Source of the DNA: Clostridiales bacterium
GTDB lineage: Bacteria; Bacillota; Clostridia; Peptostreptococcales; Anaerovoracaceae
Assembly: GCA_015058275.1 (NCBI GenBank)
Contig: SVCQ01000004.1
Location: forward strand, 38,242 to 102,241
Reading direction: 5' to 3'
DNA: 64,000 nt
Positions 33,869 through 52,041 of this stretch are shown in pieces. The notes beneath the pieces were generated by a model that saw nothing but the letters and a program-made list of their open reading frames with translations, ran no database searches and was not told the DNA's origin. Both the position numbers and the translations under genes were made by a program. Each line of letters starts with the position of its first letter. The stretch's first letter is position 1.

Positions 33869-35383
33869 ATGAGTTCTGAAATGATAACCTTTATTTTGTA
33901 CTTTGTCGCTCTGATGGGAGTAGTAATTTACTTCTACATCAAGGACAAACAGAGAAGCCAGGAGGACTACTTCCTCGGCGGACGTTCAATGGGACCTTGG
34001 GTAACAGCCCTTTCCGCACAGGCTTCGGATATGTCAGCATGGCTGCTGATGGGACTGCCTGGATCCATCCTCGCGTTTGGATTCGGACAGATGTGGATCG
34101 GTATCGGTCTTGCACTCGGTACAGCTCTTAACTGGATCCTCTGCGCGAGGAGACTGAGAGTATTCTCCGAGGAGGCCAACGACTCGATCACTATCCCGCA
34201 GTTCCTTGCTAACAGATTCGATGCCGACAGCAAGACGCTGCAGACTATCTGCGCATGCATCTTCCTGTTCGCGTATACTATCTATGTAGCATCCGCATTC
34301 GTAGCCGGTACTACAGTATTCGGTACACTGTTCCCGGGAATCTCGACTACACTCGCGATGGTCATCTTCGCACTGCTCATCGTATTCTATACGATCTTCG
34401 GCGGATTCACCGCTGTATGCTGGACAGACTTCTTCCAGGGCATGCTCATGATGATCGCACTGATGGCAGTTCCTATCTCAGTATTGGTCACACACACCGA
34501 GCTCGACACTTCGCTGCTGAGCCAGGTATATGAATATACTGACGCCAACGGAGCTACAGTAGTATGTGACTTCGGAGCCGGACTCTGGAGCGCAAGCTGG
34601 CAGGATATCGCCACAGGAATGGCTTGGGGCCTCGGATACTTCGGTATGCCTCACATCATCGTAAGATTCATGTCGATCGACAAGCCGTCAGAGATTAAAA
34701 AGGCTTCGACGATCGCCATCGTATGGGTTCTGATCTCCCTCGGCTGTGCTTGCCTCATCGCTTACATGGGCCGTATGCTCGTTGCTGATGAGCTGCTCCC
34801 ACAGGGACTCCAGAAGCTCGTATTCATCACAATGGCAAGGAAGTTCTTCCCGCCGGCACTCTCCGGACTGCTGCTCGCGGCTATCATCGCTGCATCGGTA
34901 TCGACTGCAGACTCTCAGCTGCTCGTCGCTTCCAGCTCGTTCACATCTGACCTGTATGCACAGTTCAAGAAGGACGTTACAGAGAAGGAAGCCGTTATGG
35001 TAGGACGTATCGTCGTAGTAGTGATCGCAGTTATCGCTTACCTGATCGCATCCAGCAAGGGAGCGGGCGCACAGGCTATCATGAACCTGGTAGAGAACGC
35101 ATGGGGCGCATTCGGTGCTTCGTTCGGACCGGTCATCATCCTGTCCCTCTTCTGGAGAGAGTTCAACTACAAGGGAGCTATCGCGGGTATCATCGCAGGC
35201 TTTGTTGTTGACCTCGGCTGGCTCTTCGGCGGACTCTCCGCTTCGACAGGCGTATACGAGCTGCTGCCTGGATTCATCTGCGGCATGATCGTTGCATTCA
35301 TCGTTGCCAAGGTTACACCGACTCTCGACAAGGAGAGAGCAGTATTCGACAAGGCAAGAGAGCGCGACGCAAACGCTGCTTAG
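33869..35383 (+). CDS. putP: Sodium/proline symporter (SSS family, PutP-like)
   Basis: SQEDYFLGGRSMGPWVTALSAQASDMSAWLLMGLPG, multi-TM, VSTADSQLLVASSSFTSDLY. Confidence 0.92.
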   Translation: MSSEMITFILYFVALMGVVIYFYIKDKQRSQEDYFLGGRSMGPWVTALSAQASDMSAWLLMGLPGSILAFGFGQMWIGIGLALGTALNWILCARRLRVFSEEANDSITIPQFLANRFDADSKTLQTICACIFLFAYTIYVASAFVAGTTVFGTLFPGISTTLAMVIFALLIVFYTIFGGFTAVCWTDFFQGMLMMIALMAVPISVLVTHTELDTSLLSQVYEYTDANGATVVCDFGAGLWSASWQDIATGMAWGLGYFGMPHIIVRFMSIDKPSEIKKASTIAIVWVLISLGCACLIAYMGRMLVADELLPQGLQKLVFITMARKFFPPALSGLLLAAIIAASVSTADSQLLVASSSFTSDLYAQFKKDVTEKEAVMVGRIVVVVIAVIAYLIASSKGAGAQAIMNLVENAWGAFGASFGPVIILSLFWREFNYKGAIAGIIAGFVVDLGWLFGGLSASTGVYELLPGFICGMIVAFIVAKVTPTLDKERAVFDKARERDANAA

Positions 35384-35440: not shown

Positions 35441-35589
35441 TTATATCTGTATAGATTGGGCTTTATAACTGTTTAGATTCGTTTACCCTCCGGACAGCTG
35501 CGGGTATCTTTAGCATGCGGGGGACTCCCTGCCGTTTGTGCTGTGCCTCGCAGACAGAGGTACTGTATATCCCGGAGAGGAAAAGAATT

Positions 35590-36855
35590 ATGAAATCAAG
35601 TAAAAGACTATTGGCGATACTGCTGGTATTGTCGCTTCTTATAGCGGCAGCACCGGCGGCTTCATACGCATCGCAGGACGCGCTTGATAACCCGGAGATC
35701 TATTACACTCCGTCAAGCGACTACCAGAGCGGCGACTGCATACTGTCCGCGAGTAAGATGATGATCAGGAGAGCATCCATATTGAGAGGCTCGACCGCAT
35801 GGGCGTCGATCACCAACAAGACTCTCAGGACACCTGCCACCATCATGGGGCTGCTGCTCAACTCGTTTACCTTTGAGGCTGACGGGCTTGCGTACAAGGT
35901 GGGCTGCGGCTTCTTTGGCGGAGCCGGAAAAGCCGGCAGGATAAAGGAGTTTGAGACGCTCATCAAGGCCCACCCGGAGGGAGTGGTAGTCTGGGGAGAG
36001 GGAGCTGCCAGCACGGGCACTCACGGTGTGCTGCTGGTGGATGTCCGTGACGGGGTGCCTTACGCGGCCGATTCGTCACGCAATACCGGAAGTCAGAAGA
36101 AGGGCATACAGAAGTGGAGCGACACTTCGATGAAGGACCCTGTAAAGGTCACCAAGTACTGGTATATCAAGGAAGTCGGGATCTCAAAGAACACGACCAG
36201 GTCCACATCATCCCAGTCCGCGGTATCCACGCTGAGCATCAAAAATCAGACGGTGCCGGGTAATCTCAAGCAGGGCAAGACCTTTGCGGTCAAGGGCACA
36301 GTCAATTCGAACTACACTCTTAATAACGTAACTGTAGCGGTCATAAACAGCGACGGCGCGACGGTAATAGGCAAGTCGGTAAATCCGAAGGCCAGGTCGT
36401 ATAAGCTCTCCAAGATCGACAAGTATCTGAAGTTCGGGACGCTGGCTCCGGGCTCTTACAGATATGTGGTAAGCGCAAGCGATCAGCTGATATCCGCTAC
36501 ACTGGTGGATGCTCCGTTTACCGTAACGGGCAAGGCGACGCCGACTGACAGCACTCTGCGCATTACCTCGGTCAAGGCACCGTCCTCGATCAAAAAGGGC
36601 AAGAGCTTCTCCATAAAAGGCAAGGTGAAATCCAATGTCAAGATCACCAAGGTGAGCATTAAAGTGACGGATGAGGCGGGCAAGGTAAAGCTGAAGGCCT
36701 CCGCCAAACCGAAGGCCAAATCGTATAACCTCAAGAAGCTCGACTCAAAGCTTAAGTTCAGGAAGCTAAAGAAAGGCACGTATTATTACAGGGTATATGC
36801 AACAGATAAAGCCAAGAGCCTTACCCTCGTGGATCAGGGCTTTGTAGTAAGGTAG
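35590..36855 (+). CDS. Secreted protein with possible papain/C39-like domain and Lys-rich C-terminal repeats
   Basis: Signal peptide MKSSKRLLAILLVLSLLIAAAPAASYA; candidate Cys (SGDCILSASKMM) and His (GTHGVLLVDVRDG); two Ig-like repeats (KQGKTFAVKGTVNSN / KKGKSFSIKGKVKSN). Start set at 35590. Confidence 0.7.
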   Translation: MKSSKRLLAILLVLSLLIAAAPAASYASQDALDNPEIYYTPSSDYQSGDCILSASKMMIRRASILRGSTAWASITNKTLRTPATIMGLLLNSFTFEADGLAYKVGCGFFGGAGKAGRIKEFETLIKAHPEGVVVWGEGAASTGTHGVLLVDVRDGVPYAADSSRNTGSQKKGIQKWSDTSMKDPVKVTKYWYIKEVGISKNTTRSTSSQSAVSTLSIKNQTVPGNLKQGKTFAVKGTVNSNYTLNNVTVAVINSDGATVIGKSVNPKARSYKLSKIDKYLKFGTLAPGSYRYVVSASDQLISATLVDAPFTVTGKATPTDSTLRITSVKAPSSIKKGKSFSIKGKVKSNVKITKVSIKVTDEAGKVKLKASAKPKAKSYNLKKLDSKLKFRKLKKGTYYYRVYATDKAKSLTLVDQGFVVR

Positions 36856-36870
36856 TGTGTAACGAAAAAA

Positions 36871-36910
36871 GATACAAATGGGTCGGCCCGAAAGGGCCGA
36901 TTTTTGTATC
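36871..36910 (+). terminator. Terminator hairpin with GAAA tetraloop
   Basis: gatacaaatgggtcggccc-gaaa-gggccgatttttgtatc. Confidence 0.85.
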
Positions 36911-36926
36911 GGAATTATTTTAAATT

Positions 36927-36948
36927 TGCTATAATATAAACGTATATT
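36927..36948 (+). promoter_or_regulatory. Extended -10 promoter plus AATATA-AACG-TATATT palindrome
   Basis: TGC-TATAAT-ATAAACGTATATT; same palindrome as 26949-26967. Confidence 0.6.
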
Positions 36949-36985
36949 TATGATTTCGAATACCCGGTATATGGAGACCAATCAT

Positions 36986-39658
36986 ATGAAACGCAGACCA
37001 TATATAGTCAAAAGAACCATAGCACTTGTACTGAGCTTTACCCTGATTGCGGTCACGGTATTGTCGGTTCCGGCTGCTTCGTATGCGGCGATAAACGAAA
37101 ATGATAAGGAGACAGTCAAGAGTCTTGTGTACACCGCATTCAATGACCCTGATGAGGCATATTACAGCGATGATTACTTCAGGGGAGATTCGATGGCCTA
37201 CAACAGGAAGCTGTCTACTTTTTCATATTATGTGTGCAATTCCTCATACGAGACAGCCAGAGGCAGCGTTACAAACCAGAGCCGCAATCTTGAGCAGCTC
37301 CTGGAGGATAACGGATTCACTCATTTTGAGGTAAATCAGGATTACAAAAAAGAAGCCTCCATGGATAGCTCAGCGGTAGCCTGCGCTTACAAGACCATCA
37401 GGGATGGCGGCAAGACATATACACTTCTTGCGATAATCCCGAGGAGCGGGACCTTCAAGGCTGAGTTCGAGAGGAGCCTCTATCTCAGCAAGAGCGGCAA
37501 TGATACAGGCGATCATGCCGGATACCTCGGATGCGCAAACAAGATCATAGATTTTGTCGGCGAGTACAACAAGAGGAACGGCATCAAAGGCGATGTCAAG
37601 GTATATACGACCGGATACAGCGGCGGCGCCGGAGTCTGCGATCTCTTTGCGGCCGAGCTGATCAGACATCCTAAGACAGTGCTCGGAAGCAGAGTGAAGT
37701 TTGATCCTTCCAATCTGTACTGCTACAACTTCTCGCCGCTGCGCATCGCATCGCTTAGTTCGGAGCCGAAGAACAGCAAATACGACTGTATCCATAATAT
37801 ATACGACAAAGCCGATCTGCTGATGCATCTCATCACTGCAGATAAGTTCGACAGATACGGAACTGACTATTATTACAGGGACGGCGTGGACAAAGACATG
37901 GCCCTCGCACTCATGAAGGTCGACTCTCCGTGGATATATCGTTCATATGTCGGAGGAGCAGACCCTGATTTGTATAGTCCATATAAGGTGGACTTCGAGG
38001 CGATGATCAAAGAGGGCAAGCTCGCGATGGTGCCGGACGACGATTCATATCTTTCCAAAGATATGGAAGGCTATCTGGACTCGGTATCCCGCGAGATACA
38101 GAGCATATGCGCCCAGGAGGGCGGCGGTAACAGCCGCAAGGGCTACTACAATTCTTTCCAGGAGCCGACGATGCATCTTGTCGGATACTTCTTTGAGAAC
38201 GGGATCAATTTCGACCATATACAGGTGCTGTTCGGTGCTCTGTCATCGACAGATACATCTATACCGCTGATCCTGTCGATGTACACATCATTTCTGGTCA
38301 ATAAGAGCATCAACGATAATACCGTCAACCTGAATGCTCTTATAGAGGACAGCTTCAACAAGCTGGTCGCCAGAGAGGAAGCAGACGGCAATTCATCGAC
38401 CGGATATGATGCATTTGGTAAGATAAGGGACAAGTACTTTGACCGGGGTGAGGACGGCTATTACAGGCTCAAAAGCCAGCTCAGCAGTTCCGACAAGAGC
38501 CTGCTTCTCAAAGGCCTTAAGGAACTCACGGCTAAGCTGTATGCCGCATCCGTAAGGACGGCGCTTGAGGCGGACGGAGAGGATCCTGAGATGGTGGATC
38601 TGCTGACATCAGACGAAGACAGTAAAGCGACCTCGTGGCTCCTTGCGAATATTATGTTCGGCAACGGCGACCAGAGCTCTGAGCTAAAACCTCTGAACCT
38701 TGAGAATCAGCAGTTCAAGCAGCTGGCAACATTCGCATCCAATACCGACAGATATACATCCCTGCATATGTTCTATTTTGTATTCAGCTGGATCAGGGCA
38801 GCGGATCCTAATTTCGAGGACTTCACAAAGCCTGACGAAGCTCAGCAGACAGGATACAGGAGGGTGTTCATATCCGCATCCGGTGGAGCTTCTGTGAGCG
38901 GTACAGTCACCGATGAGAGCAATTCCGTCGCAGCGACGTTCAAAGACGGCGAGATACTCTCAAGAAATGACGAGTGGATAGGCATGACCACCTGCGATAC
39001 CGGCAACTGGCTCAGACTGCCTCTCGACAAGTCGTACAAGGTATCACTGACGGTAAGCAAGGATACTTCGGTGGATCTCAAAGTTGCTGATTACTCCGTC
39101 AGAGAAGGCGAAGTAAAGAGGGTTGTTACAAGCGATGCATCCGGCAGCTGGACAGGACTCAAAGCAGGTACAACAGAGAATCTCGTGCTTGATATCCCTG
39201 CAGCCAACTGTGAGCATGGATTATACGATCTGACCAGTGCGGTATATACTCTCAGCAGGCATAATAACAAGTCTGACGCTGACGGCGGCAAGAGCAGCGG
39301 GAATATCAGAACCATAAGCGTCCCTGCCGTGATGTCGGAGATCGTCTCGGGCGATGTACCTGCTCTTAGGAAGGTAAAGGCAAAGGCGTCAAAGAAGGCG
39401 TTTACCGTCAGCTGGAAGAAGCTCTCCAAAAAGCTCCGCAAAAAGGCCGGCAATATCGAGCTGCAGTACAGTACTGACAGTCAGTTCAGCCCGGAATCGA
39501 CCGTGACGAAGACTCTGGGCAAGAGCAAGAAATCACTCAAGGTCAAAAAACTCACCAAGGGGACTACATACTACGTCAGGGTGAGATCTGTAAAAGAATC
39601 GGGCGGCTCGAAGTATGTATCCGGGTGGTCAAAGATTAAAAAGGTGAAGGTAAAGTAA
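36986..39658 (+). CDS. Secreted lipase-like alpha/beta hydrolase with C-terminal Lys-rich Fn3-like domain
   Basis: Signal peptide; nucleophile elbow VYTTGYSGGAGVCDLFAAEL (GxSxG-type); C-terminal KVKAKASKKAFTVSWKKLSKKLRKK...YYVRVRSV...WSKIKKVKVK. Start set at MKRRPYIV. Confidence 0.75.
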   Translation: MKRRPYIVKRTIALVLSFTLIAVTVLSVPAASYAAINENDKETVKSLVYTAFNDPDEAYYSDDYFRGDSMAYNRKLSTFSYYVCNSSYETARGSVTNQSRNLEQLLEDNGFTHFEVNQDYKKEASMDSSAVACAYKTIRDGGKTYTLLAIIPRSGTFKAEFERSLYLSKSGNDTGDHAGYLGCANKIIDFVGEYNKRNGIKGDVKVYTTGYSGGAGVCDLFAAELIRHPKTVLGSRVKFDPSNLYCYNFSPLRIASLSSEPKNSKYDCIHNIYDKADLLMHLITADKFDRYGTDYYYRDGVDKDMALALMKVDSPWIYRSYVGGADPDLYSPYKVDFEAMIKEGKLAMVPDDDSYLSKDMEGYLDSVSREIQSICAQEGGGNSRKGYYNSFQEPTMHLVGYFFENGINFDHIQVLFGALSSTDTSIPLILSMYTSFLVNKSINDNTVNLNALIEDSFNKLVAREEADGNSSTGYDAFGKIRDKYFDRGEDGYYRLKSQLSSSDKSLLLKGLKELTAKLYAASVRTALEADGEDPEMVDLLTSDEDSKATSWLLANIMFGNGDQSSELKPLNLENQQFKQLATFASNTDRYTSLHMFYFVFSWIRAADPNFEDFTKPDEAQQTGYRRVFISASGGASVSGTVTDESNSVAATFKDGEILSRNDEWIGMTTCDTGNWLRLPLDKSYKVSLTVSKDTSVDLKVADYSVREGEVKRVVTSDASGSWTGLKAGTTENLVLDIPAANCEHGLYDLTSAVYTLSRHNNKSDADGGKSSGNIRTISVPAVMSEIVSGDVPALRKVKAKASKKAFTVSWKKLSKKLRKKAGNIELQYSTDSQFSPESTVTKTLGKSKKSLKVKKLTKGTTYYVRVRSVKESGGSKYVSGWSKIKKVKVK

Positions 39659-39662
39659 TAGT

Positions 39663-41360
39663 ATGGGAACAAGAGATGCATTAACCGGGATTATCGTTAG
39701 GGCTATGATAGCCAAGGGGCATTCAGACATCCGCAGGATGCATAAGAATACCGTTAATGCCCGCAAAAAGAACGAAAAGCTCCTCTTCGATATCCTCAGG
39801 GCCAACAAGACGAGCGAATACGGACGCAGGTACAATTTTGAAGGCATCAAAAGTGTTGAGGAGTTCCGCAGTACCGTGCCTCTGACCACATTCGACGATT
39901 ACGCTGATTATGTGGTCAGGATGATAGACGGCCACGAGACCAATCTCATCACCTCGCATAAGATCGTGGGATACGCTCAGAGCTCAGGTACGGTGGGAAA
40001 GCGCAAATTTGTGCCGCTTACCCAGCCTGAGGTCGATGTGTATACAAGCAATACCATCACAAGGATGCTGGCTAATGCCGATGACTACAGCAAAAAGCAT
40101 TACGGTCACGGGATCAAACCGGCAAGAGGCATGTTTACTGCGCCTTCCTTTGATGATGTGCTTCCTGACGGGACGCCGTGCAGCAATATTGCCGACGTGG
40201 TCGCCAAGCAGTTCGGATTCATCTATCCGTATGCGCTCAGCATCCCGTTCAAAAAGATGTTCAACGAGGCGGAGGCTGAGTCAAAGTACGTCAACAGCCG
40301 CTTTGCCCTCGAGGACAGGAATACGCTCTTTATTTTTGCCATTTTCTTCAGAGAGGTAGCAGCATATCTGGACTATCTCAAAAATAACTGGCAGACTCTC
40401 GTAGATGATATTGAGCACGGTACTATCAGCGAGCTTGCCAAGGCGACCCCGGAGGCTGTCGAAAAGATGAAGAAGCACATCAGGCCTCTTCCTGAGAGGG
40501 CGGCAGAGCTCAGAGCTGAGTTCGAGAAGGGCTTTGATGAGACCATCATCAAGCGTATATGGCCTAACATGTCAGTGATCAGCGGTATAGGCACATCCAC
40601 CTTTTTCCCGTTCGCCAAGCGTGCAAGGCAGAACACCAAAGGTGTGCCTTTCGATTTCAATCTGTACGGCGCGAGCGAAGGTCTGATGGCTGCCGCAGAT
40701 GAGCTTGAGACCGGCAGACAGCTGATGCTCATAGACAGCTGCTACTACGAATTCATGCCTGTAGACGAGGAGACAGACGAGAGCGATGAGAGCAATATCC
40801 TCTCGATCAACGAACTCGAGGTCGGCAGGAATTACGAGATCATCATCACCAATCAGTCGGGTCTGTACAGATACCGCTGCGGTGATGTCGTCAAGGTAAT
40901 TGACTATCTCAACGAATGTCCGTATATCGTCTTCTCATATCGTAAGGGACAACTTCTCAACATAACAGGTGAGAAGACCACAGAGGAGCACATGGCGGCG
41001 GTCGTCAAGGAGATCGGAAAGCTCTCCGGATGCACGGTCACCGACTGGGCGGCGCGCAACGTCATCGATGAGCATCCGTATTACTACGAGCTGATAATTG
41101 AGAATAAAGAGGGCATGGACCTGAGCGGATACGCAGAGGAGGCTCACCGCATACTCTGCGAGGTCAATCCGAGGTACATGTATTTTACAGCCATAGACGG
41201 CATGGGCAATCTCAGGATACGCAACCAGAAGCCCGGCACTCACAAGGAGTGGGCTGACGCGCTTGTCGCAAGCGGCAGACCTGTCACGCAGGTAAAGCCT
41301 GTCAGGATCATAAATACACCTGAGAAAGAAGACTTCTTCCTCAGCAGGATAACAGACTGA
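39663..41360 (+). CDS. GH3 auxin-responsive promoter family protein (acyl-adenylate-forming amido-synthetase fold)
   Basis: FRSTVPLTTFDDYADYV, YAQSSGTVGKRKFVPLT, NLYGASEGLMA, YEIIITNQSGLYRYRCGDVVKV. Confidence 0.85.
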   Translation: MGTRDALTGIIVRAMIAKGHSDIRRMHKNTVNARKKNEKLLFDILRANKTSEYGRRYNFEGIKSVEEFRSTVPLTTFDDYADYVVRMIDGHETNLITSHKIVGYAQSSGTVGKRKFVPLTQPEVDVYTSNTITRMLANADDYSKKHYGHGIKPARGMFTAPSFDDVLPDGTPCSNIADVVAKQFGFIYPYALSIPFKKMFNEAEAESKYVNSRFALEDRNTLFIFAIFFREVAAYLDYLKNNWQTLVDDIEHGTISELAKATPEAVEKMKKHIRPLPERAAELRAEFEKGFDETIIKRIWPNMSVISGIGTSTFFPFAKRARQNTKGVPFDFNLYGASEGLMAAADELETGRQLMLIDSCYYEFMPVDEETDESDESNILSINELEVGRNYEIIITNQSGLYRYRCGDVVKVIDYLNECPYIVFSYRKGQLLNITGEKTTEEHMAAVVKEIGKLSGCTVTDWAARNVIDEHPYYYELIIENKEGMDLSGYAEEAHRILCEVNPRYMYFTAIDGMGNLRIRNQKPGTHKEWADALVASGRPVTQVKPVRIINTPEKEDFFLSRITD

Positions 41361-41395
41361 TCAAATTCAAACAGGAGATTATAGTACAACGACAG

Positions 41396-43474
41396 ATGAA
41401 AAGGTGGTTCTACACTCAGGTAGTCAAATACAGGAAGGCCATAATGGTAGCTTTTGTGCTGCTTGCAATATGCAGCGCTGTTATGTATCCGAAGGTATTC
41501 GTTGATTACGACATCGCTCATTATCTGCCGGAGGAGTCTCCTTCGACAGTCGCTCTCAAGGTAATGCAGGAGGAGTTCGGGGGCGATCTTCCTAATACAC
41601 AGGTTGTCATTAGGGATGTCAGCTTCAATGATGCGGCTGACTTCAGGAAAAAGCTGGAGGCCATAGACGGCGTCATTGATGTGACATGGGTAGACTCAAT
41701 GCTGCCTCTCAACATGCCGGTCGAGGTCCTTCCGGAACCGCTGACAGAGGCATACTACAAGGATCGAAATGCTCAGTTCCTTGTGACCGTGGATGAAGAC
41801 AAGCAGATCGAAACCATTCCGGCGATATACGACCTGATCGGCGAGGACAATATGCTGACAGGTAATTCCGCCATCACAGTGGTCGCTACCGTCAATTCCG
41901 TCAGGGAGATCATTATCATCACGATCATCGCGATCCTCTTCCTGATATTCGTGCTGATAATCACTACCACATCATGGGTAGAGCCGATAATCATCCTGAT
42001 CGGACTTCTTATCGCTGTGGTGATAAATTCCGGTACCAACCTGGTATTCGGCAAGATATCTTTCGTAACGAACGCAGCCGGAATGATACTCCAGATGGCG
42101 GTCGCTCTGGATTACTCGGTATTCCTCATACACCGCTTCAACGAGAGGGAGGATGACTCTGATCCTGAAGAGGCCATGGTGGACGCGCTTACGTCCTCAT
42201 CGTCTTCGATCATGTCCAGCGGTCTGACTACAGTTATAGGCTTCCTGGCGCTCGCATTCATGAGGTTCCTCATAGGAGCCGACCTTGGACTTGCACTCTC
42301 AAAGGGAGTCGCCATAAGCCTTATAACCACTCTCGTATTCATGCCGGGTGTCATACTCGCTTCGTACAGATGGATGGAAAGGACAAGCCACCGCAGGTTC
42401 CTGCCGTCCTTCGAGAAGTTCGGACGTTTTGTACTCAAAGTGACCATGCCTATGGTGATCATCTTCGCACTTGCTGTCGTACCGTCGTTTATGGGCAGCC
42501 GCAGCAATGATTTCTGGTACGGAGGCTCGCATATCTACGGACCGGAGACACGCATAGGCTCCGACGGAGAGAAGATCAGAGAGATATTCGGTGATGTGGA
42601 CTCATACATGCTCATGGTGCCGAGGGGCGATTCATCTACGCAGAAGGCTCTTGTCAGAGAACTCAAGGAGATCGACAAGATCTCGAACATACTCGGACCT
42701 GAAGAGGTCATGGGAATGACCTTGCCTCCGGAGGCTCTGCCGGATTCTATAATTAACCAGCTGAGGACTGACAGGTACGACCGCATGGTGCTGACTGTGG
42801 CGGTACCTGCAGAGGGTGATGAGACCTATGCACTCGTCCAGACTATCCGAAAGGTCTCGGAGAAGTACTATCCGGGAGAGTACAGGCTTGTCGGCGTAGG
42901 AGTGAACAACGCGGACCTCAAGGACGTGATAACAGGCGATACGCTCAAGGTCAATCTTATCGCCATAATCGCGGTATTCCTTGTGCTGCTCCTTACGATG
43001 AGGAACATAGCTCTGCCGTTCATCCTGGTGACTATCATCGAGACGGCGATATGGATAAACATGTCGATATCTGTGCTGACAGGATCGCATATGTTCTACA
43101 TGTCTTACCTGATCGTAAGCTCGGTACAGCTCGGAGCTACAGTCGACTACGCAATACTGTTCACGCAGAGGTACCGCGAGAACAGAAACGAACTCGGCAT
43201 AAGCCCGAGGGAGAGTGTAGTGAAGACGATCACGGAGAACACAGTATCGATCATGACATCAGCTCTTGCGGTATCCGTTATGGGCTTCCTGCTGGCCTGG
43301 TTCTCGACCCAGGGCATCATCGCCCAGATCGGACTGCTGCTCGGAAGAGGTACGCTTTGCTCGCTCATTGCGGTGCTCTTCGTACTGCCGGGACTCCTGA
43401 TCACATTTGACAGGTTCGTCATGCATTCATTTGGCGGCAAAAAGCGAGAATTATCTGAAAAACAAACGCTTTAG
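41396..43474 (+). CDS. MMPL/RND family transporter
   Basis: Two repeated TM blocks; AVALDYSVFLIHRFNEREDD and GATVDYAILFTQRYRENR. Confidence 0.93.
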   Translation: MKRWFYTQVVKYRKAIMVAFVLLAICSAVMYPKVFVDYDIAHYLPEESPSTVALKVMQEEFGGDLPNTQVVIRDVSFNDAADFRKKLEAIDGVIDVTWVDSMLPLNMPVEVLPEPLTEAYYKDRNAQFLVTVDEDKQIETIPAIYDLIGEDNMLTGNSAITVVATVNSVREIIIITIIAILFLIFVLIITTTSWVEPIIILIGLLIAVVINSGTNLVFGKISFVTNAAGMILQMAVALDYSVFLIHRFNEREDDSDPEEAMVDALTSSSSSIMSSGLTTVIGFLALAFMRFLIGADLGLALSKGVAISLITTLVFMPGVILASYRWMERTSHRRFLPSFEKFGRFVLKVTMPMVIIFALAVVPSFMGSRSNDFWYGGSHIYGPETRIGSDGEKIREIFGDVDSYMLMVPRGDSSTQKALVRELKEIDKISNILGPEEVMGMTLPPEALPDSIINQLRTDRYDRMVLTVAVPAEGDETYALVQTIRKVSEKYYPGEYRLVGVGVNNADLKDVITGDTLKVNLIAIIAVFLVLLLTMRNIALPFILVTIIETAIWINMSISVLTGSHMFYMSYLIVSSVQLGATVDYAILFTQRYRENRNELGISPRESVVKTITENTVSIMTSALAVSVMGFLLAWFSTQGIIAQIGLLLGRGTLCSLIAVLFVLPGLLITFDRFVMHSFGGKKRELSEKQTL

Positions 43475-43515
43475 CTATATACGGTAACCTTAATAATATG
43501 TTAGAATAATTGCGT

Positions 43516-45969
43516 ATGTGGAAGTACTCACTGGATCAAAAACAAAGTCTTAAGAACAGGATAACAGCTCTCATGCTCGCAGTTGTGCTCGTAACGGGCG
43601 GCAGCGGCGTGCTTTCGGCTGTGTTTTCTTATGCCGAGACCGGTGCTTCCAAGGAGGAGACCGTTTATGCCATCAAGTCGGCTGACGGCGAGACCCAAAA
43701 GGTCATCGTCGACGAGCTCCTTGTCACAGATGTCAACGGCCCTCTTGAGGACGTGTCATTCCTGAGCGAGATCGAGAATCTCTCAGGTGATGAGAAGTAC
43801 ACAAGAGACGGAGCCAATCTGGTATGGGAGGCCAAGGGCAATAACATCAGATACCAGGGCACATCCGACCGCGGACTTCCGGCGGACCTCAGCCTGACAT
43901 ACTACCTCAACGGCAAGAAGGTCAGCGCCAAGGAGATAGCCGGCAAGTCAGGCAGCGTTGAGATCCACTTCGATTACGACATCAACAGCAGCGTGAGCGT
44001 AGGAGACGGGGTGATGGATCATCCTTATCTCTTCGCAAGCGGGCTTTCGCTCGATCACGAGCACTTCAGCAATATTTCGATCAATTCAGGCAAGATCGTC
44101 GACAACGGCGACAACAGCCTGTGCATGGGCTTCGCTATGCCGGGCCTCAGAGACAATCTCGGCATTGATGCAGCAGGCCTCACAATACCTGAGAGCGTCG
44201 TAGTCAAGGCTGACACGGATTCATTCCGTATTGACGGTACCTACAGCGTTGCAATGACAGGTCTGCTCTCGCAGTCAGGCGCTGATGAGATCGCAGATGA
44301 CGCAGCGGGCATGATGGCTCAGCTCGAGTCAGGACTCGGCCAGCTGTCATCGGCAGCCAACCAGCTCGTAGAGGGCAGCAGCGAGCTCGCCAGCGGCATC
44401 TCGCAGCTTTCGGACGGCACTCAACAGCTCGAGTCGGGTTCGGTCTCTCTGACCGATGCCATCAAGGCTCTGTGGAACGGTTCGACTGAGTTGTATAACG
44501 GATCCAAAGAACTTCACAGCGCTACCACTCAGTTAAAGGACGGCGCTATACAGATAGACAACGGAGTCAGCGGACTCAAGACCGGCACCTCACAGCTCAA
44601 GGAAGGCACCGAACAGCTCAGCGAGGGCATGGCTGAGTTCAGCGGTTATATGACAGAGTTCAGAGAAGGCAGTGAGCAGCTAAAGGACGGCACCGAGGCC
44701 GTCAAAGAGGGCACGGGCGAGCTCAAGTGTGCAACCGAGCTCATGAACATAGCATCCGATGCCATAGTCGCAGAGTCGGCTATCATGAAGGCTGAGACCA
44801 TACTTCTCCGCAAGAACGCCGGAGATCTCGAGGATGTCACCCAGGAGGTGGCTGATGATCTCCACGAGGCCGCAGGAGACAAGGCTCTGAGATCAAAGCT
44901 CAGCTCGGTAGAGAAGAGTACAGATACTGCTGTGAACGCAGCCAATGACATGAGCGATACTCTTGATGCACTCGCATCAGAGGGTTCGGGAGTCGGCAGC
45001 GATGCATCCGGATTCAGGAGCAGCATCGCCGCATACCGCAGCCAGCTCAATGCAGCCAGGAGCCTTGTCAAGGATGAGGGCAAGCGAGCCCTTATCGACA
45101 GAGCTCTCGCAGAGCTCAGCGGACTCGATTCGTATCTTGCCAGCGTAGAGTCATTTACCAACGACGTCGAATCCGCATCCTCAAGCGCAGATGCAGTCAG
45201 CGATGAGGTCAGCGGTCTTCGCAGCGGTGTGACGGGACTCGGCAAGACAGAGAAGTCCGGCAAGAGCGATATCAAGGATATAGCCGCAAAGGCCGACAAG
45301 GCCAGCAGCAAAGCCTCCACGGTCAAAAAACAAGCCGTGGCCGCAGATATAACCGCATCCGCAATACTCGCATCATCAGGTCTGATGGTGATACTTGCAC
45401 ACAGGATCAACGATGGTGCAGTCCAGCTTGATGAGGGCGCTGCTCAGCTTGATGAGGGCGTGGGCACTCTCGTTGAGGGAGCACGCGGTCTGGACGAAGG
45501 AGCCAAGGATCTGAGAGAGGGAGTACTCGAACTCGACGGCGGCGCAGGAGAGCTCGATGAGGGCGTCGGAACGCTAAAGGAGGGCACTTCCGAGCTCGCA
45601 TACGGTTCAGAGCAGATCGACAGCGGCATGTCACAGCTTGAGAACGGCGCAAGTCAGCTCTCGAGCGGATCCGGACAGCTCGCCGGAGGCACTACACAGC
45701 TTCTCAGCGGAGTCAAGGCTCTCTCAATAGGAGCTCAGGAGGCTGAGTACGGAGCCGATCAGCTCTCAAGCGGTATCAACCGCTTCAATAAAGAGGGTAT
45801 ACAGAGATTCGTCTCCGCCCTCGGAGAGAGCGGCGTAGCAGGCATGCTTGCGAGATTCAACAGCCTCTGCGAGGCTGACAGCATAGAAGTCTTCTACGGA
45901 GGTAAGATGGAAGGCAGCTCAGGCGAGTCAAGGATAATCTTCAAGACCGGAGCGATAAGCGCAGAGTAA
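43516..45969 (+). CDS. Exported YhgE/Pip-like coiled-coil protein with Gly-containing heptad repeats
   Basis: N-terminal TM/signal; xLxxGxx heptads such as QLDEGVGTLVEGARGLDEGAKDLREGVLELDGG; ATG 43516 chosen over TTG 43510. Confidence 0.75.
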   Translation: MWKYSLDQKQSLKNRITALMLAVVLVTGGSGVLSAVFSYAETGASKEETVYAIKSADGETQKVIVDELLVTDVNGPLEDVSFLSEIENLSGDEKYTRDGANLVWEAKGNNIRYQGTSDRGLPADLSLTYYLNGKKVSAKEIAGKSGSVEIHFDYDINSSVSVGDGVMDHPYLFASGLSLDHEHFSNISINSGKIVDNGDNSLCMGFAMPGLRDNLGIDAAGLTIPESVVVKADTDSFRIDGTYSVAMTGLLSQSGADEIADDAAGMMAQLESGLGQLSSAANQLVEGSSELASGISQLSDGTQQLESGSVSLTDAIKALWNGSTELYNGSKELHSATTQLKDGAIQIDNGVSGLKTGTSQLKEGTEQLSEGMAEFSGYMTEFREGSEQLKDGTEAVKEGTGELKCATELMNIASDAIVAESAIMKAETILLRKNAGDLEDVTQEVADDLHEAAGDKALRSKLSSVEKSTDTAVNAANDMSDTLDALASEGSGVGSDASGFRSSIAAYRSQLNAARSLVKDEGKRALIDRALAELSGLDSYLASVESFTNDVESASSSADAVSDEVSGLRSGVTGLGKTEKSGKSDIKDIAAKADKASSKASTVKKQAVAADITASAILASSGLMVILAHRINDGAVQLDEGAAQLDEGVGTLVEGARGLDEGAKDLREGVLELDGGAGELDEGVGTLKEGTSELAYGSEQIDSGMSQLENGASQLSSGSGQLAGGTTQLLSGVKALSIGAQEAEYGADQLSSGINRFNKEGIQRFVSALGESGVAGMLARFNSLCEADSIEVFYGGKMEGSSGESRIIFKTGAISAE

Positions 45970-45994
45970 ACAGCAAATATAAGCGTTTAAATAT

Positions 45995-46026
45995 AAAAGC
46001 AGTACCTGAGATCGGGTACTGCTTTT
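45995..46026. terminator. Bidirectional terminator between convergent genes
   Basis: aaaagcagtacc-tgagatcg-ggtactgctttt. Confidence 0.9.
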
Positions 46027-46052
46027 GTCTTTGTCATAATCTATGTCTTATC

Positions 46053-47588
46053 TTACTGCTTACCGGCGGATGTGTACTGTCTCGAGAGGAGTATGTCATC
46101 GCCGTATGCGTATATGACTTCTACGGATATGCCCTTGATACCGGTATCCTGCTCGAGGCCGCCGCAAAGCTCAATGAAGCGCTTGTCGTTTGAATCGAGG
46201 TTCTCTTCGAGGACCTGTTTTAATTCGTCGCTTTTGGCGTCGTCTTCAGACATGCCGTCGTTGGTGCTGAGGTCGTATGTGTATACGAGGGTGTTGTCCT
46301 TGACTGCGACCTTGACGGAAGTGCCGTCAGTGGACTGGAGGATCTGCTGGCGTGCAGTCTCGTTGTTCTTGACGAAATCCTCAAGGGTCAGAGTGTATAC
46401 CTCAGGCTTTGGCTCCTCCTCGACAGTCTCCTTGTCTGAAGCCTTTGGACCGGCGTAGTACATGTTGTAAAGTTTGGTGCCGGCAAGACCGAGAACTGCC
46501 AAAAGGGCTATGATCAGCAGAGCTGCCACAAATCCGGATGGTTTGCGACCGGCCTTGGAAGGAGCTTCATCTGAGGCGGCTTCTCTGAGGGCCTTCCTGG
46601 CTGCAGCTGCCTCCTCGGCTTTGCGCTTCTCCTCAGCTCTGGCCTCCTGAGCCAGTCTCTTCTCTTCGTCTCTTGCCTCCTGAACGAGCCTCTTCTCTTC
46701 GGCTTTGGTCTCCTGAGCTCTTCGCTTCGCTTCGGCCTTAGCCTCGATGGCCTGTCGCTTCTCATCGGCGCGTTTTTGCTTTTGGGCTTCGGCCCTGGCT
46801 TTGGCCTCGGCCTTTTCGGCCCTGCGTATCTCGGCACGGCTTGGCTGCTTTGGGGCAGGAGCCGGCTCCGGTGCAGGGGCAGTCTCCTGAACTTCGGGAA
46901 CTTCGTCCTGCAGGATCTGCTCTGGCGCTATGACCGACTGAGACGGAGCACTGACCTGTTGAGGCGCCGGGCTTGCCTTGTGAGCAGGGGTGCCGACCTT
47001 GATGGAGCCGGTACCCGAGGTTACGCATGGGATGCGGTTTTTGACGGCGAATTTGTGAGCCTCAGAACCCGCAGGCGTATGTATCGTGAGCTTGGAGCAT
47101 CCGTGGAACGGGTGCTTGTCAAAGAAGCTCGTGAATTCGGTAACTGACTCAGGAATGGTCACTTTGGTGAGATGGGTGCAGTCACTGAAGGCACCGATGC
47201 CGATAGCGGTGACGCTCTCAGGTATCTCGATGCTCGTAAGAGCGTGGCATTCCCTGAATGTGTAAGGCTCGATCTTTGTAAGACCATACGGAAGCTTGAC
47301 GTTGTGAAGCTCTGTGCAGCCCGCGAATGCGTACTCTCCCAGCTCATTAAGGCTGAACGGGATATATACGCTTATGAGGTGGCTGCAGTTCTCGAAGCAG
47401 TGGTTTTCGATCACCTCAAGCCCATCCGGCAATATGACGGAGCTGAGGGCTTTGTCATCACGAAAAACACCGCTCGCGATACCGGTGATCGGCTCTGCGA
47501 TGACCAGGTCGGAGCTGATGCCTGTGTACTGCATCAGATATCCGTCAGATATCTTTAGGTCTTTTGATCTGCTGAGTTCGTATTTCAT
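46053..47588 (-). CDS. BspA-like leucine-rich repeat protein with Lys/Ala/Glu coiled coil, TM helix and C-terminal DUF4854-like domain
   Basis: LRR_5 units (LPDGLEVIENHCFENCSHLISVYIPFSLNELGEYAFAGCTEL); TM GFVAALLIIALLAVLGLAG; start at second Met after an AGGAAAG site. Confidence 0.75.
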   Translation of the reverse strand: MKYELSRSKDLKISDGYLMQYTGISSDLVIAEPITGIASGVFRDDKALSSVILPDGLEVIENHCFENCSHLISVYIPFSLNELGEYAFAGCTELHNVKLPYGLTKIEPYTFRECHALTSIEIPESVTAIGIGAFSDCTHLTKVTIPESVTEFTSFFDKHPFHGCSKLTIHTPAGSEAHKFAVKNRIPCVTSGTGSIKVGTPAHKASPAPQQVSAPSQSVIAPEQILQDEVPEVQETAPAPEPAPAPKQPSRAEIRRAEKAEAKARAEAQKQKRADEKRQAIEAKAEAKRRAQETKAEEKRLVQEARDEEKRLAQEARAEEKRKAEEAAAARKALREAASDEAPSKAGRKPSGFVAALLIIALLAVLGLAGTKLYNMYYAGPKASDKETVEEEPKPEVYTLTLEDFVKNNETARQQILQSTDGTSVKVAVKDNTLVYTYDLSTNDGMSEDDAKSDELKQVLEENLDSNDKRFIELCGGLEQDTGIKGISVEVIYAYGDDILLSRQYTSAGKQ

Positions 47589-47766
47589 CTTTGTCTTTCC
47601 TGAAAAATATATAGGCAATTATGATTATACTATTAAGTGCATGAGCATTCAATTTACCATAAAAATTTAAACTTCATTTTAGTTACAATGTCTAGAATGC
47701 AGTTGTAAGATAAAGCAGAAGAACGGATGACCGGCATGATACAGCAGGCCGGAACAGGAGATTACA

Positions 47767-49248
47767 ATGAAATCAGCAGGAAGCATAAAGAAGATACTTG
47801 CGGTCCTCTTTGCGGCAATGATCATGATCTCGATGTGCGCATGCAGCGCAAAAGAGGCAGCGGAAACTGCAGATACGGTAAGCTATCTGACAAAGGAGGA
47901 TATAGACGTCAAAGAGACGATAACAAATGATCAGGACGGTGAGCACGCGATCGAAGTCAGCGGCGAGGAGAAGGAGTATTCGAACGTCGGAGTCACCAAG
48001 ACAGGCGATTCGGACGGCGATGAGGCTGACTTCTACGGAGAGAATTCCGCGGTGTTCACAACGGAGAAGGGGACTCTTACGATAAAGGATTCTCTGATCG
48101 AGACCGACGGCGCTCATGCCAATGCGGTGTTCTCGTACGGAGAGGGGACAACGGTCAATATCTCGGATTCGGTTATCGAGACCAAGGGCAACTGCTCGGG
48201 CGGTCTGATGACAACAGGCGGAGGCACCATGAATGCCCAAAACCTCACCATCAATACTTCCGGCAATTCCTCGGCGGCCATAAGATCCGACAGAGGAGGC
48301 GGAACTGTCACGGTGACAAAGGGTTATTACAAGACAACAGGAACAGGATCACCTGTTATCTACTCGACGGCGGACATTACTGTTAATGATTCGTATCTCG
48401 AATCGACAACATCGGAGGGAGTAGTGGTAGAGGGCAAGAACTCAGTTACACTCAATAACGATACTCTAGTCGCCAACAACAGCAAGCACAACAGCGACAA
48501 GTCGGACAGCTATCACGGCATCATGATCTATCAGTCGATGTCCGGAGATGCAGCAGAAGGCACTTCGTCATTCACAGCAAACGGCAGTACTATAACCAAC
48601 AAGAACGGTGATGTATTCTTCGTCAACAACACGGCGACAAAGATCTCTCTTACTGACACGGAGATCACAAACGAAGATGCTGACGGAGCATTCCTGAGAG
48701 CGGCGGCTGCAGGATGGGGCAATGAGGGCTCCAACGGCGGCAAGGTCGAGCTGACTGCTTCAAAGCAGAAGATAGACGGAAACATCATCGTAGACGATAT
48801 CTCAACTCTCAATCTCTACCTGAAGGACAGCTCATCCCTGAACGGAGCCATCAATTCAGACGGCCAGAAGGGCGATGTATATGTTGAGATCGAGGACGGA
48901 AGCACATGGACTCTCACCGCTGACTCCTATGTATCCGGACTGACTGTCAGCAAGGGCTCGGCTATCGATCTGAACGGACACAAGCTCTATGTCGACGGCA
49001 AGGAGTACACCGAGGGATCGGCTTCAAAGGGTACGGCTTTTGAGATCAAGACTGAGAGCTCCGGCGGCGGGGCACAGGACGGTGCGCCGAGCGGAGCCCC
49101 GGGAGGCTCTTCGGACGGCGCACCATCCGGCAAGCCGGGAGACGGTCAGACACCTCCGGACGGCGGCAAGGGCGGTACACCTCCTAGCGGCGAAAAGCCT
49201 TCGGGAGAGCCACCTGCAAAGCCAAGCGGTGATTCAAACCAGGCATGA
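47767..49248 (+). CDS. Lipoprotein with beta-helix-like repeats and Gly/Pro-rich C-terminal tail
   Basis: Lipobox ISMCACSA; repeated TLTIKDSLIETDGAHA / TVNISDSVIETKGN units; tail GAPSGAPGGSSDGAPSGKPGDGQTPPDGGKGG. Confidence 0.75.
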   Translation: MKSAGSIKKILAVLFAAMIMISMCACSAKEAAETADTVSYLTKEDIDVKETITNDQDGEHAIEVSGEEKEYSNVGVTKTGDSDGDEADFYGENSAVFTTEKGTLTIKDSLIETDGAHANAVFSYGEGTTVNISDSVIETKGNCSGGLMTTGGGTMNAQNLTINTSGNSSAAIRSDRGGGTVTVTKGYYKTTGTGSPVIYSTADITVNDSYLESTTSEGVVVEGKNSVTLNNDTLVANNSKHNSDKSDSYHGIMIYQSMSGDAAEGTSSFTANGSTITNKNGDVFFVNNTATKISLTDTEITNEDADGAFLRAAAAGWGNEGSNGGKVELTASKQKIDGNIIVDDISTLNLYLKDSSSLNGAINSDGQKGDVYVEIEDGSTWTLTADSYVSGLTVSKGSAIDLNGHKLYVDGKEYTEGSASKGTAFEIKTESSGGGAQDGAPSGAPGGSSDGAPSGKPGDGQTPPDGGKGGTPPSGEKPSGEPPAKPSGDSNQA

Positions 49249-49325: not shown

Positions 49326-50636
49326 TTATTTTGCGATGTAGCGCGACTCGATGTAGTATCTCTTTTCGTTGGCTTCTCCCATGGAGAATGTCTTACGTGG
49401 GAGAGCTCCGTCGGCTGCAACAGCAGGGAAGAGCATGAACTTGTCCATTGGAGGAAGCATGAATCCTGCGTTGCCCTCTCTTGTGGAGAGCTTTTCGACT
49501 GCGGCTGTGCCGTGGATGTAGTCTATATCGCAGTCGCCGTCCTCCTTGACCATGATGTCAAGGACGTGCTGGAGAGCGCCTACCTCGAGTTTGTTGGACG
49601 GAGCCTCGATAACGATCTTGCCTCTGCCCTCAGCTGTGATATAAGGGATCTCGAATGCGCCATCAGGTACGGCTGCACCGGCATCTGCCTTGTAAGCCTT
49701 GCCGTTGACCTCGTCAAGCAGCTTGACAACCTTGTCTACGAGCTCAGTGCCGGACTGACCCTTTTTGGCGAAAATGACTCTGTGGATAGGCTCGAATACG
49801 ATGCCTGCATCGTGGATGTTTTCGATCTCGCAGAGTGCGTATCTTGCCGGATGACCCTCGATCTCCTCAGGGGAGAGGGTCTTTTTGATGTTCTCCCATG
49901 CGGTCTTGGCTGTAGCCAGCGAATGGTTGCCGTCTCCCATAGCCTGGAAGATAACATTGCCCGCGCCGTACTTGGCCTCGGCCTTGTCGAAGAGCTTTGA
50001 GAGAGCTTCCTTGGCACCGTCCAGATCCTTCTCCTTGATGAAGGAGCCTGTGATGTGGCCGCCGTCCATCATGAGGTCGGTGTCATAGATGACTTCCTGA
50101 GGTTTGTCTGCGAGAGGCTCGATGACTGTCTTGTCAGGGTCGTCGATGAGAATGATGATGTGAGGCATTTCGATAGGGGCGTCTCCTCTGATCCTCAGGC
50201 GAGGCGGTATACGCTCTACTACAGTGCCCTCAGTGGCTCTTGTAAGGGAAGTGGAGCCCTTGCTGAAGTCGTAGGCTTCGAGGTCTGTAGCGATCACGAG
50301 TCCCAGACGTGTGCGGCCCTCTGCGGTCCTCTTGATGAGCATGCAGCCCGGCTCCATCTTGCGGAGAGTACCGTCAGCGAGGTACTTGTCCATTGTGGCT
50401 CTGACGTTTTTGATGCGCTCAGCCTCATCCGGTCCGTCGAGGTAGAGCTCAGGAAGCATGAGTCTCAGAGTCGACGGCGCATCGCCTACGATCTCCTCGA
50501 CCTTGTCCCAGTACTCAGGCTCAGAGGTGAACTGGTCGCATGCGACTACAGCCCACTTATAATAGTCTGTGCCTTCCTTTGGAAGCATGATCTCCGGAAT
50601 ATGGAGACCGAATTTTCCCCAATCGTATGTAGACAT
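49326..50636 (-). CDS. DUF1015 family protein
   Basis: KWAVVACDQFTSEPEYWDKVEEIVGDAPSTLRLMLPE, QAMGDGNHSLATAKTAWE. Confidence 0.9.
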   Translation of the reverse strand: MSTYDWGKFGLHIPEIMLPKEGTDYYKWAVVACDQFTSEPEYWDKVEEIVGDAPSTLRLMLPELYLDGPDEAERIKNVRATMDKYLADGTLRKMEPGCMLIKRTAEGRTRLGLVIATDLEAYDFSKGSTSLTRATEGTVVERIPPRLRIRGDAPIEMPHIIILIDDPDKTVIEPLADKPQEVIYDTDLMMDGGHITGSFIKEKDLDGAKEALSKLFDKAEAKYGAGNVIFQAMGDGNHSLATAKTAWENIKKTLSPEEIEGHPARYALCEIENIHDAGIVFEPIHRVIFAKKGQSGTELVDKVVKLLDEVNGKAYKADAGAAVPDGAFEIPYITAEGRGKIVIEAPSNKLEVGALQHVLDIMVKEDGDCDIDYIHGTAAVEKLSTREGNAGFMLPPMDKFMLFPAVAADGALPRKTFSMGEANEKRYYIESRYIAK

Positions 50637-50853
50637 TGAATTTCCTCCGTAAATCAGGTGTTAAACTCATTGGTAACTGCCTTTTAGTCTTGTACTAAAA
50701 GGATACAATCGCTGTGTTAATTATCGGACAAAAACGGCTTCATTGCAAGGCTGAATGTGTTACAATTATTAAAGCAGAGGGTATATCAGCCCGACTAGAT
50801 ACAACTTATTTATCCAAGTTTTAATATTCTTTTTTACTTCAGGAGGTAAAAGA

Positions 50854-52041
50854 ATGATATCTAAAAGCATGCAGCCTTTCCTTGAAGGCAGCTCGGCAAT
50901 CAGAGCTATGTTTGAGGAAGGCAAGAGAATGGCCAAGGAGCGCGGAGCAGAGAATGTCTACGACTATAGTGTCGGTAACCCGTCACCTCATCCGCCGGTT
51001 GAGGTTTATAAGGCTCTGGACTATATCAATACGAAAGCAGACCCTCATATGGTCTACTCGTATCCGTCCAATGCCGGTTACGAAACCACACGTCAGGCGG
51101 TCGCGGACAATCTCAACGAGAGATTCGGTGATTACTTCGACATGTCGGGCATCATCATGACAGCTGGTGCAGGCTACGCTATCAACATCATCATGAAGTG
51201 CATCCTCGATCCGGGTGACAAGGTCGTGGCTTTTGCTCCATACTTTGTGGAGTACGCTAACTGGGCAAGGAACTTCTTTGCAGACACACTGGTAGTACCG
51301 CCGAACTACAAAGGCGGATTCGAGCCTGACGCAAAGAAGCTCAAAGAGATCCTTGAACCGGATGTCAAGGCTGTAATAATCAACAATCCTAACAATCCGA
51401 CCGGAGCTATCTATTCGAGAGAATCCCTTGAGGCAGTTGCAGAAGTCCTCAGAGAAGCCGAAAAGGAATTCGGACATCCGATCTATATCATTTCCGACGA
51501 ACCATACAGAGAACTCGTATACGTAGACAAGAAGGTAGAATTCCTGCCTGAGATTTACGCTGACACGATCATCGCTTATTCGTGGTCAAAGTCCCTGTCG
51601 ATGCCGGGTGTACGTATCGGATACGCTGCTGTTCCTAAGTGCGCTGACGGAGCAGAGGAGCTCGCTCATGCTCTTGTGATCGCTCAGAGAGTACTCGGAG
51701 CCAACAACGCTTCGACTATCGCAGAGCTCATCGTCGAGAGATCTCTTCACTCAACGATCGACCTCAGTTTCTACTACAGAAATGCAAAGGATCTCTACAG
51801 GATCGTTACAGAGGCCGGCTTTGAGGCCATCGTACCTCAGGGTGCTTTCTATCTCTGGTTCAAGTCGCCTGTTGAGAACGAGCTCGAGTTCGTAGAGGCG
51901 GCCAAGGAGGAGGGTATCCTCATCGTTCCGGGCAGATCCTTCGCAAGCCCTGGATGGGTAAGAGCTTCGTTCTGCGGATCCCACAAGATGATTCTCAGAT
52001 CCGAAGAGGCCTTCAAGAGACTCGGAGCCAAATACAAGTAA
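50854..52041 (+). CDS. Pyridoxal phosphate-dependent aminotransferase (class I/II)
   Basis: NNPNNPTGAIYSRE, ISDEPYRELVY, YSWSKSLSMPGVRIGY. Confidence 0.95.
   Translation: MISKSMQPFLEGSSAIRAMFEEGKRMAKERGAENVYDYSVGNPSPHPPVEVYKALDYINTKADPHMVYSYPSNAGYETTRQAVADNLNERFGDYFDMSGIIMTAGAGYAINIIMKCILDPGDKVVAFAPYFVEYANWARNFFADTLVVPPNYKGGFEPDAKKLKEILEPDVKAVIINNPNNPTGAIYSRESLEAVAEVLREAEKEFGHPIYIISDEPYRELVYVDKKVEFLPEIYADTIIAYSWSKSLSMPGVRIGYAAVPKCADGAEELAHALVIAQRVLGANNASTIAELIVERSLHSTIDLSFYYRNAKDLYRIVTEAGFEAIVPQGAFYLWFKSPVENELEFVEAAKEEGILIVPGRSFASPGWVRASFCGSHKMILRSEEAFKRLGAKYK

Follow-up and report, generated by a model that had tools for sequence, protein, structure and literature searches.

Four open reading frames lie on the + strand of the 64-kb window (the whole stretch of DNA analysed) in the order HYD-GH3-MMPL-HEP, together spanning positions 36950-45969 (Table 1). 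They are separated by 4 nt (HYD/GH3), 35 nt (GH3/MMPL) and either 35 nt or 41 nt (MMPL/HEP, for a TTG or an ATG start of HEP, respectively). Both the frames and the tight packing agree with the first-pass annotation, and a hairpin follows HEP; the start it had given for HYD, 36986, is in frame, but the ORF begins at 36950, and 36986 is its Met13. A terminator-like hairpin lies near 36890-36915 and an AT-rich promoter-like sequence near 36919-36954, although promoter-like sites in the consensus scan were no more frequent than expected from shuffled sequences. Weaker + strand sites from the terminator scan inside the unit (38165, 42958 and 44008) all fall within genes. This outline of promoter-like and terminator-like signals is consistent with a single transcript of the 36950-45969 unit.

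Table 1. Features of the cassette and its conserved flanks (positions in the window)
Feature	Position	Strand	Basis or remark
Left conserved flank: SSF symporter, 95% identical in G808	33869..35383	+	Context, outside the pathway
Terminator-like hairpin of the upstream gene, then AT-rich promoter-like sequence ahead of HYD	36890..36955	+	Sequence and consensus scan
HYD, exported class-3-lipase-like alpha/beta hydrolase with C-terminal fn3 module	36950..39658	+	Alternative start 36986
GH3a, full-length GH3 acyl-adenylating/amido-synthetase-like enzyme	39663..41360	+	Pfam, motifs
MMPL/RND transporter, paired Asp-Tyr motifs at residues 239-240 and 584-585	41396..43474	+	
HEP, exported, two LxxG-heptad blocks, long predicted helices	43510 (TTG) or 43516 (ATG)..45969	+	
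Strong terminator-like hairpin of 16 pairs, closing the unit after HEP	45993..46028	+	
Right conserved flank: DUF1015 protein (-), aminotransferase-like protein (+); also in G808 and G397	49326..52041		Context

In HYD (902 aa) a single hydrophobic, signal-like segment lies near the N-terminus (residues 24-42) and an fn3 domain near the C-terminus, and the nucleophile motif reads G-Y-S-G-G. Its putative triad consists of Ser224 and Asp289, both present in all 10 relatives compared, and His606, present in 9 of the 10; HYD thereby shows the GxSxG motif with conserved Asp and His expected of a class-3-lipase-like enzyme. Pfam does not detect the lipase domain of the window protein, and the relative in locus L043 is likewise below the Lipase_3 cut-off; the relative in L046 passes it (29.3 bits, cut-off 22). 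Fungal class-3 lipases took the top Foldseek ranks, at an E value of 0.004 (above 0.001) and with a low-confidence model (mean pLDDT 63.4), and a sequence search of solved structures returned mainly weak fn3-type matches. The basic C-terminal fn3 module (about 105 residues, with a KVKVK-like end) is common to HYD and several giant exported proteins; its carriers are encoded at 27015-33413 and 36950-39658 of the window and on contigs C21, C28 and C33 of the same genome (43-55% identity), and it is perhaps a common surface-retention tail.

GH3a (565 aa) exceeds the Pfam cut-off of 23.6 bits for all three GH3 domains (218.2, 88.3 and 40.2 bits). Its nucleotide-binding motifs, as defined in PMC12493201, are intact (S107SGTVGKRK115, Y335GASE339 and G400LYRYRCGD408) and conserved in relatives. 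The GH3a profile matches plant GH3 structures at 1e-88, the closest solved ones being plant auxin and jasmonate enzymes; because every GH3 structure found in the PDB set is from plants, this resemblance says little. An assignment of GH3a to OlsH of bacteria was rejected, as it scores 100.8 bits against the equivalog cut-off of 620 of NCBIfam NF052613. In a tree of 50 GH3 proteins, the window's GH3a belongs to a clade of eight gut sequences with full support; the GH3b proteins described below make up another clade, also fully supported. Six metagenome-assembled genomes (MAGs) supplied close GH3a relatives (53-65% identity), with ruminant gut as the origin where the source was recorded.

MMPL (692 aa) is a two-repeat protein that matches its family model with 160.3 bits in two stretches (cut-off 20.5). 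We counted 11 hydrophobic segments (Kyte-Doolittle) against the about 12 transmembrane helices of MMPL/RND transporters; the Asp-Tyr proton-relay pairs are in the expected places, and solved MmpL4/5 structures were matched. HEP (819 aa) matches the xxxLxxG heptad model TIGR03057 with 114 bits, above its cut-off of 18.6. Its LxxG heptads, spaced by 7 residues, form two blocks at about residues 272-391 and 640-752, and there are two hydrophobic segments, one N-terminal and signal-like, the other internal and weak. The AlphaFold model of HEP, built on an alignment of two sequences, is poor (mean pLDDT 46.6) and usable for its long helices only. HEP, earlier called YhgE-like, is not YhgE itself: there is no YhgE/DUF3533 match, terminal membrane domains are lacking, and only the generic TIGR03057 repeat is detected. 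A solved-structure sequence search with HEP gave no match. PHROGs gave nothing informative.

The congeneric genome G808 carries a longer version of the locus (L043), HYD-GH3a-AMP ligase-GH3b-condensation-fold acyltransferase-MMPL-HEP. Its flanks are those of the window, with the SSF symporter on the left and an LRR protein, DUF1015 and aminotransferase-like genes on the right (the DUF1015 protein is 89% and the aminotransferase-like protein 94% identical in comparison with G808 and G397). Since the flanks match, the three extra genes of G808 sit exactly at the window's 35-nt gap. In G378, HYD-AMP ligase-GH3b-acyltransferase-MMPL is found at a contig end, with the ligase as two ORFs, and MMPL-HEP and GH3a are both at other places; in G805 (L046), HYD-GH3a-HYD-patatin, HYD-GH3b-acyltransferase and MMPL-HEP are on three separate contigs. 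The window's own genome (G000) has an AMP ligase-acyltransferase pair (L089) on another contig (C12, about 120.5-123.4 kb), while C28 carries another GH3a (55-56%) and C21 another close MMPL (62%); the ligase-acyltransferase pair is also present in G815. The acyltransferase of L043 matches PF00668 with 145 bits, and the HHxxxD motif reads HHIISD[G/A] in all five stand-alone acyltransferases (L043, L050, L089, L090 and L092), none of them in the window. The neighbourhood is therefore partly conserved in related genomes, as the same locus with the same flanking genes in G808 and related sets in G378 and G805. The four genes proposed as the cassette are real, but the set is incomplete, as sister species also have an AMP ligase, another GH3 and a condensation-fold acyltransferase. 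The AMP ligase match in G815 (C9:4183-5820) counts one TGA and one TAA, and L092 shows a 544-aa open ORF there; the match probably extends past the ORF ends.

Across 47 genomes of the genus, the same four (G000, G378, G805 and G808) carry HYD, GH3a, the acyltransferase and the close MMPL type. Each of these has one additional occurrence: a 36% relative of HYD in G408, a more distant GH3 in G809, the acyltransferase in G815 and the close MMPL in G397. Each gene pair thus overlaps in four of five genomes (Fisher p = 1.4e-4), in a test that ignores phylogeny and is driven by four to five genomes, and the MAGs in this set are incomplete (G000 is 83% complete). The GH3 of G809 scores lower (704 bits) than the GH3a proteins (843-900 bits) and adjoins two ABC half-exporters; G809 and G408 (2 of 47 genomes) are without the remaining cassette genes.

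Between the window and G808, HYD, GH3a, MMPL and HEP are 52-65% identical, against a median of about 90% for the other shared genes of the contig. Synonymous divergence is also raised (pS 0.67-0.77 in cassette genes against 0.40-0.55 in four core genes, with dS near saturation), and this favours an old divergence of the cassette alleles, through replacement by transfer or differential loss of paralogues, over fast protein change alone. The interval of about 35515-49248 is a variable surface region between conserved core genes: identity to G808 is likewise low, about 46-56%, for the LRR gene (46053-47618) and the gene at 35515-36855, and the surface protein at 47767-49248 occupies a different position in G808 and G397.

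Among 149 genomes of the family, GH3 was above the cut-off in only 24, many with short partial matches, and MMPL relatives were found in 66. MMPL-HEP pairs without GH3 occur in L056, L057, L061, L062, L068, L091, L093 and L095; in G397 the pair (L093) occupies the window's syntenic site, again without HYD or GH3. Among more than 50 Bacillota GH3 loci, MMPL adjoins GH3 in this genus only. The idea of a dedicated GH3-MMPL partnership across Clostridia is not supported in that form, given this restriction to one genus and the frequency of MMPL-HEP without GH3. Elsewhere, GH3 is accompanied by ABC half-exporters and RimK ATP-grasp ligases (L052, L071-L073, L074, L076 and L077), with NRPS modules near GH3 in L074-L076. 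From these neighbourhoods, a combination of GH3, ligases and exporter appears to recur with a changing type of exporter; the broader claim of GH3-exporter linkage stands for Clostridia, but the exporters are usually ABC half-exporters and not MMPL.

From the observed gene content, catalytic motifs, linkage and co-occurrence we infer every reaction, product and role that follows. We consider, at a probability of about one half, that in gut Anaerovoracaceae (Mogibacterium-like) a lineage-restricted pathway makes and exports an acyl conjugate, and that the cassette is one of its variants. GH3a would activate a free fatty acid with ATP and couple it to an amine, for which an amino acid is the likeliest candidate. 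The AMP-dependent ligase and the condensation-fold acyltransferase, encoded on another contig in G000 and inside the cassette in G808, would add a further acyl group to give an ornithine-lipid-like or other multi-acyl conjugate; a multi-acyl product is suggested because relatives add AMP ligase, GH3b and acyltransferase and G000 has a ligase-acyltransferase pair. The genes for N-acylation (GH3), acyl activation (AMP ligase), further acylation (condensation fold) and MMPL are all present in one genome. The proton-driven MMPL pump would move the conjugate out of the membrane, with HEP as a cell-wall stalk or substrate-handling partner. HYD may either supply GH3 with free fatty acids or, once the product is outside, hydrolyse it or transfer acyl groups; in the latter case it would parallel the mycolyltransferase Ag85, which acts after MmpL3.

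The type of chemistry predicted has a bacterial precedent in OlsH, a GH3 enzyme that uses a free fatty acid, ATP and ornithine to make N-acyl-ornithine, which a second acylation turns into ornithine lipid (PMC12493201). As in the OlsH-OlsI system of Singulisphaera acidiphila, a GH3-family ligase is encoded with an alpha/beta hydrolase, acyl-AMP chemistry and an amide product are expected, and another acylation may follow, for which the condensation-fold acyltransferase is a candidate here. However, HYD is exported and lipase_3-like, whereas OlsI, together with OlsH in cell-free extract, acts as an O-acyltransferase, and the three-gene olsHGI operon has neither MMPL nor a coiled-coil partner. 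The combination of a condensation-fold acyltransferase and an MMPL exporter, with an acyl ligase in the expanded cassette, resembles the mycobacterial sulfolipid system, in which the condensation-fold acyltransferases PapA1/PapA2, together with Chp1, are coupled to MmpL8 export (PMC6996325). The cassette differs in having GH3 enzymes and in lacking polyketide synthase and trehalose; the mycobacterial system has no HEP or HYD, and the hosts are Gram-positive gut Clostridia without a mycomembrane. The MmpS5L5 pump also joins an MMPL pump to a long extracytoplasmic coiled coil (PMC12501195), and by analogy with the MmpL5 coiled-coil tube a stalk role is suggested for HEP; MmpL5 itself carries that coiled coil as an insertion of 196 residues, whereas here it is a separate exported protein with two heptad blocks. 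FarE, an MMPL-type pump that exports unsaturated fatty acids from the Gram-positive Staphylococcus aureus (PMC12671165), shares the transporter family and a lipid-like substrate, but its partner is the regulator FarR and not GH3, a hydrolase or a heptad protein. The Clostridial GH3-RimK-ABC clusters likewise bring GH3, ligases and exporter together, with heterodimeric ABC half-exporters and ATP-grasp ligases in place of MMPL, HEP and HYD.

The separate occurrences of the genes count against a dedicated pathway, namely MMPL-HEP without GH3, and GH3a apart from MMPL in G378 and G805. There is accordingly a real, if minority, chance that two unrelated modules share a variable surface island, with MMPL-HEP as a general envelope lipid or efflux unit and HYD-GH3a merely co-transcribed. 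The MMPL-HEP loci without GH3, among them the one at the syntenic site of G397, and the HYD-GH3a of G805 without MMPL would all fit; yet in the window, G808 and G378 MMPL shares a unit with HYD and either GH3a or GH3b, and the same four genomes that carry its close type also have HYD, GH3a and acyltransferase. We regard as rather unlikely a defence against fatty acids, in which the lipase frees diet or host fatty acids, GH3 conjugates them and MMPL, FarE-like, expels the conjugates or the fatty acids. Such a role would suit ruminant-gut relatives and draws on the substrates of FarE (PMC12671165) and OlsH (PMC12493201), but the ligase and condensation-fold acyltransferase of G808, G378 and G000 would hardly be needed, secretion of a lipase would increase the stress, and the operon has no adjoining FarR-like regulator. 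We find it more improbable still that the acid is not a lipid at all, GH3 conjugating a plant aromatic acid, phytohormone or bile acid for MMPL to export and the hydrolase de-esterifying. The plant-fed gut habitat and the closeness to auxin and jasmonate enzymes speak for it; against it, the acyl-CoA-ligase-like, condensation-fold acyltransferase, lipase-like and MMPL partners all lean towards lipids, and the structural resemblance is uninformative in an all-plant set of GH3 structures.

Returning to the acyl-conjugate pathway, the cassette and its relatives probably point to an undescribed, divergent surface-lipid pathway. A bolder version is tentative at best: a Gram-positive gut lineage that has no mycomembrane might nevertheless assemble surface lipids in modular fashion, by a logic like that of mycobacteria. 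An acyl-amine lipid would be built by GH3 enzymes with a PapA-like acyltransferase, the MMPL pump and a separate coiled-coil stalk would carry it across the cell wall, and the exported lipase-like enzyme would transfer or trim acyl chains at the surface, with divergent versions of the whole set swapped between species at one site.

As far as the literature we found shows, a bacterial GH3 function has been demonstrated in one planctomycete only. Our literature search, with most subscription papers outside its reach, returned no description of Clostridial GH3, RimK-GH3 or MMPL-heptad systems. The cassette and its expanded sister define a bounded gene set (GH3a, GH3b, AMP ligase, acyltransferase, MMPL, HEP and HYD) that may offer a route to an acyl conjugate, as yet undescribed, in ruminant-gut bacteria. 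Should the products be N-acyl amino acids or lipids of the ornithine type, host receptors or neighbouring microbes could be their targets, and if the GH3 product is exported by MMPL-HEP, this would be the first function for a transporter pair that is common in the family and includes an extracytoplasmic coiled-coil protein.

Further arrangements were seen at the other GH3 loci. A domain scan found a RimK-type ATP-grasp domain fused to a full GH3 in G290 (L052:3722-6235), where the fusion adjoins ABC half-exporters and a second GH3; a RimK-GH3 fusion also stands beside ABC half-exporters in G391 (L060). L071, L072 and L073 share a conserved cluster with a pair each of GH3 genes, ABC half-exporters and RimK ligases, which is a candidate system for acyl-peptide biosynthesis and export. 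Some GH3 genes have radical-SAM-like or MATE-like neighbours, labels assigned by similarity to reference ORFs that were themselves unscanned. In L038, L054, L113, L119 and L120, GH3 lies beside several mutually similar proteins of about 440-450 aa, which by their look we take to be B12-type radical-SAM enzymes. Four tandem proteins of about 700 aa (L114:35-8637) were considered as MMPLs and rejected, as their N-terminal sequence looks like that of an alkaline-phosphatase/phosphodiesterase-type hydrolase; these hydrolase-like proteins stand just upstream of two GH3 genes.
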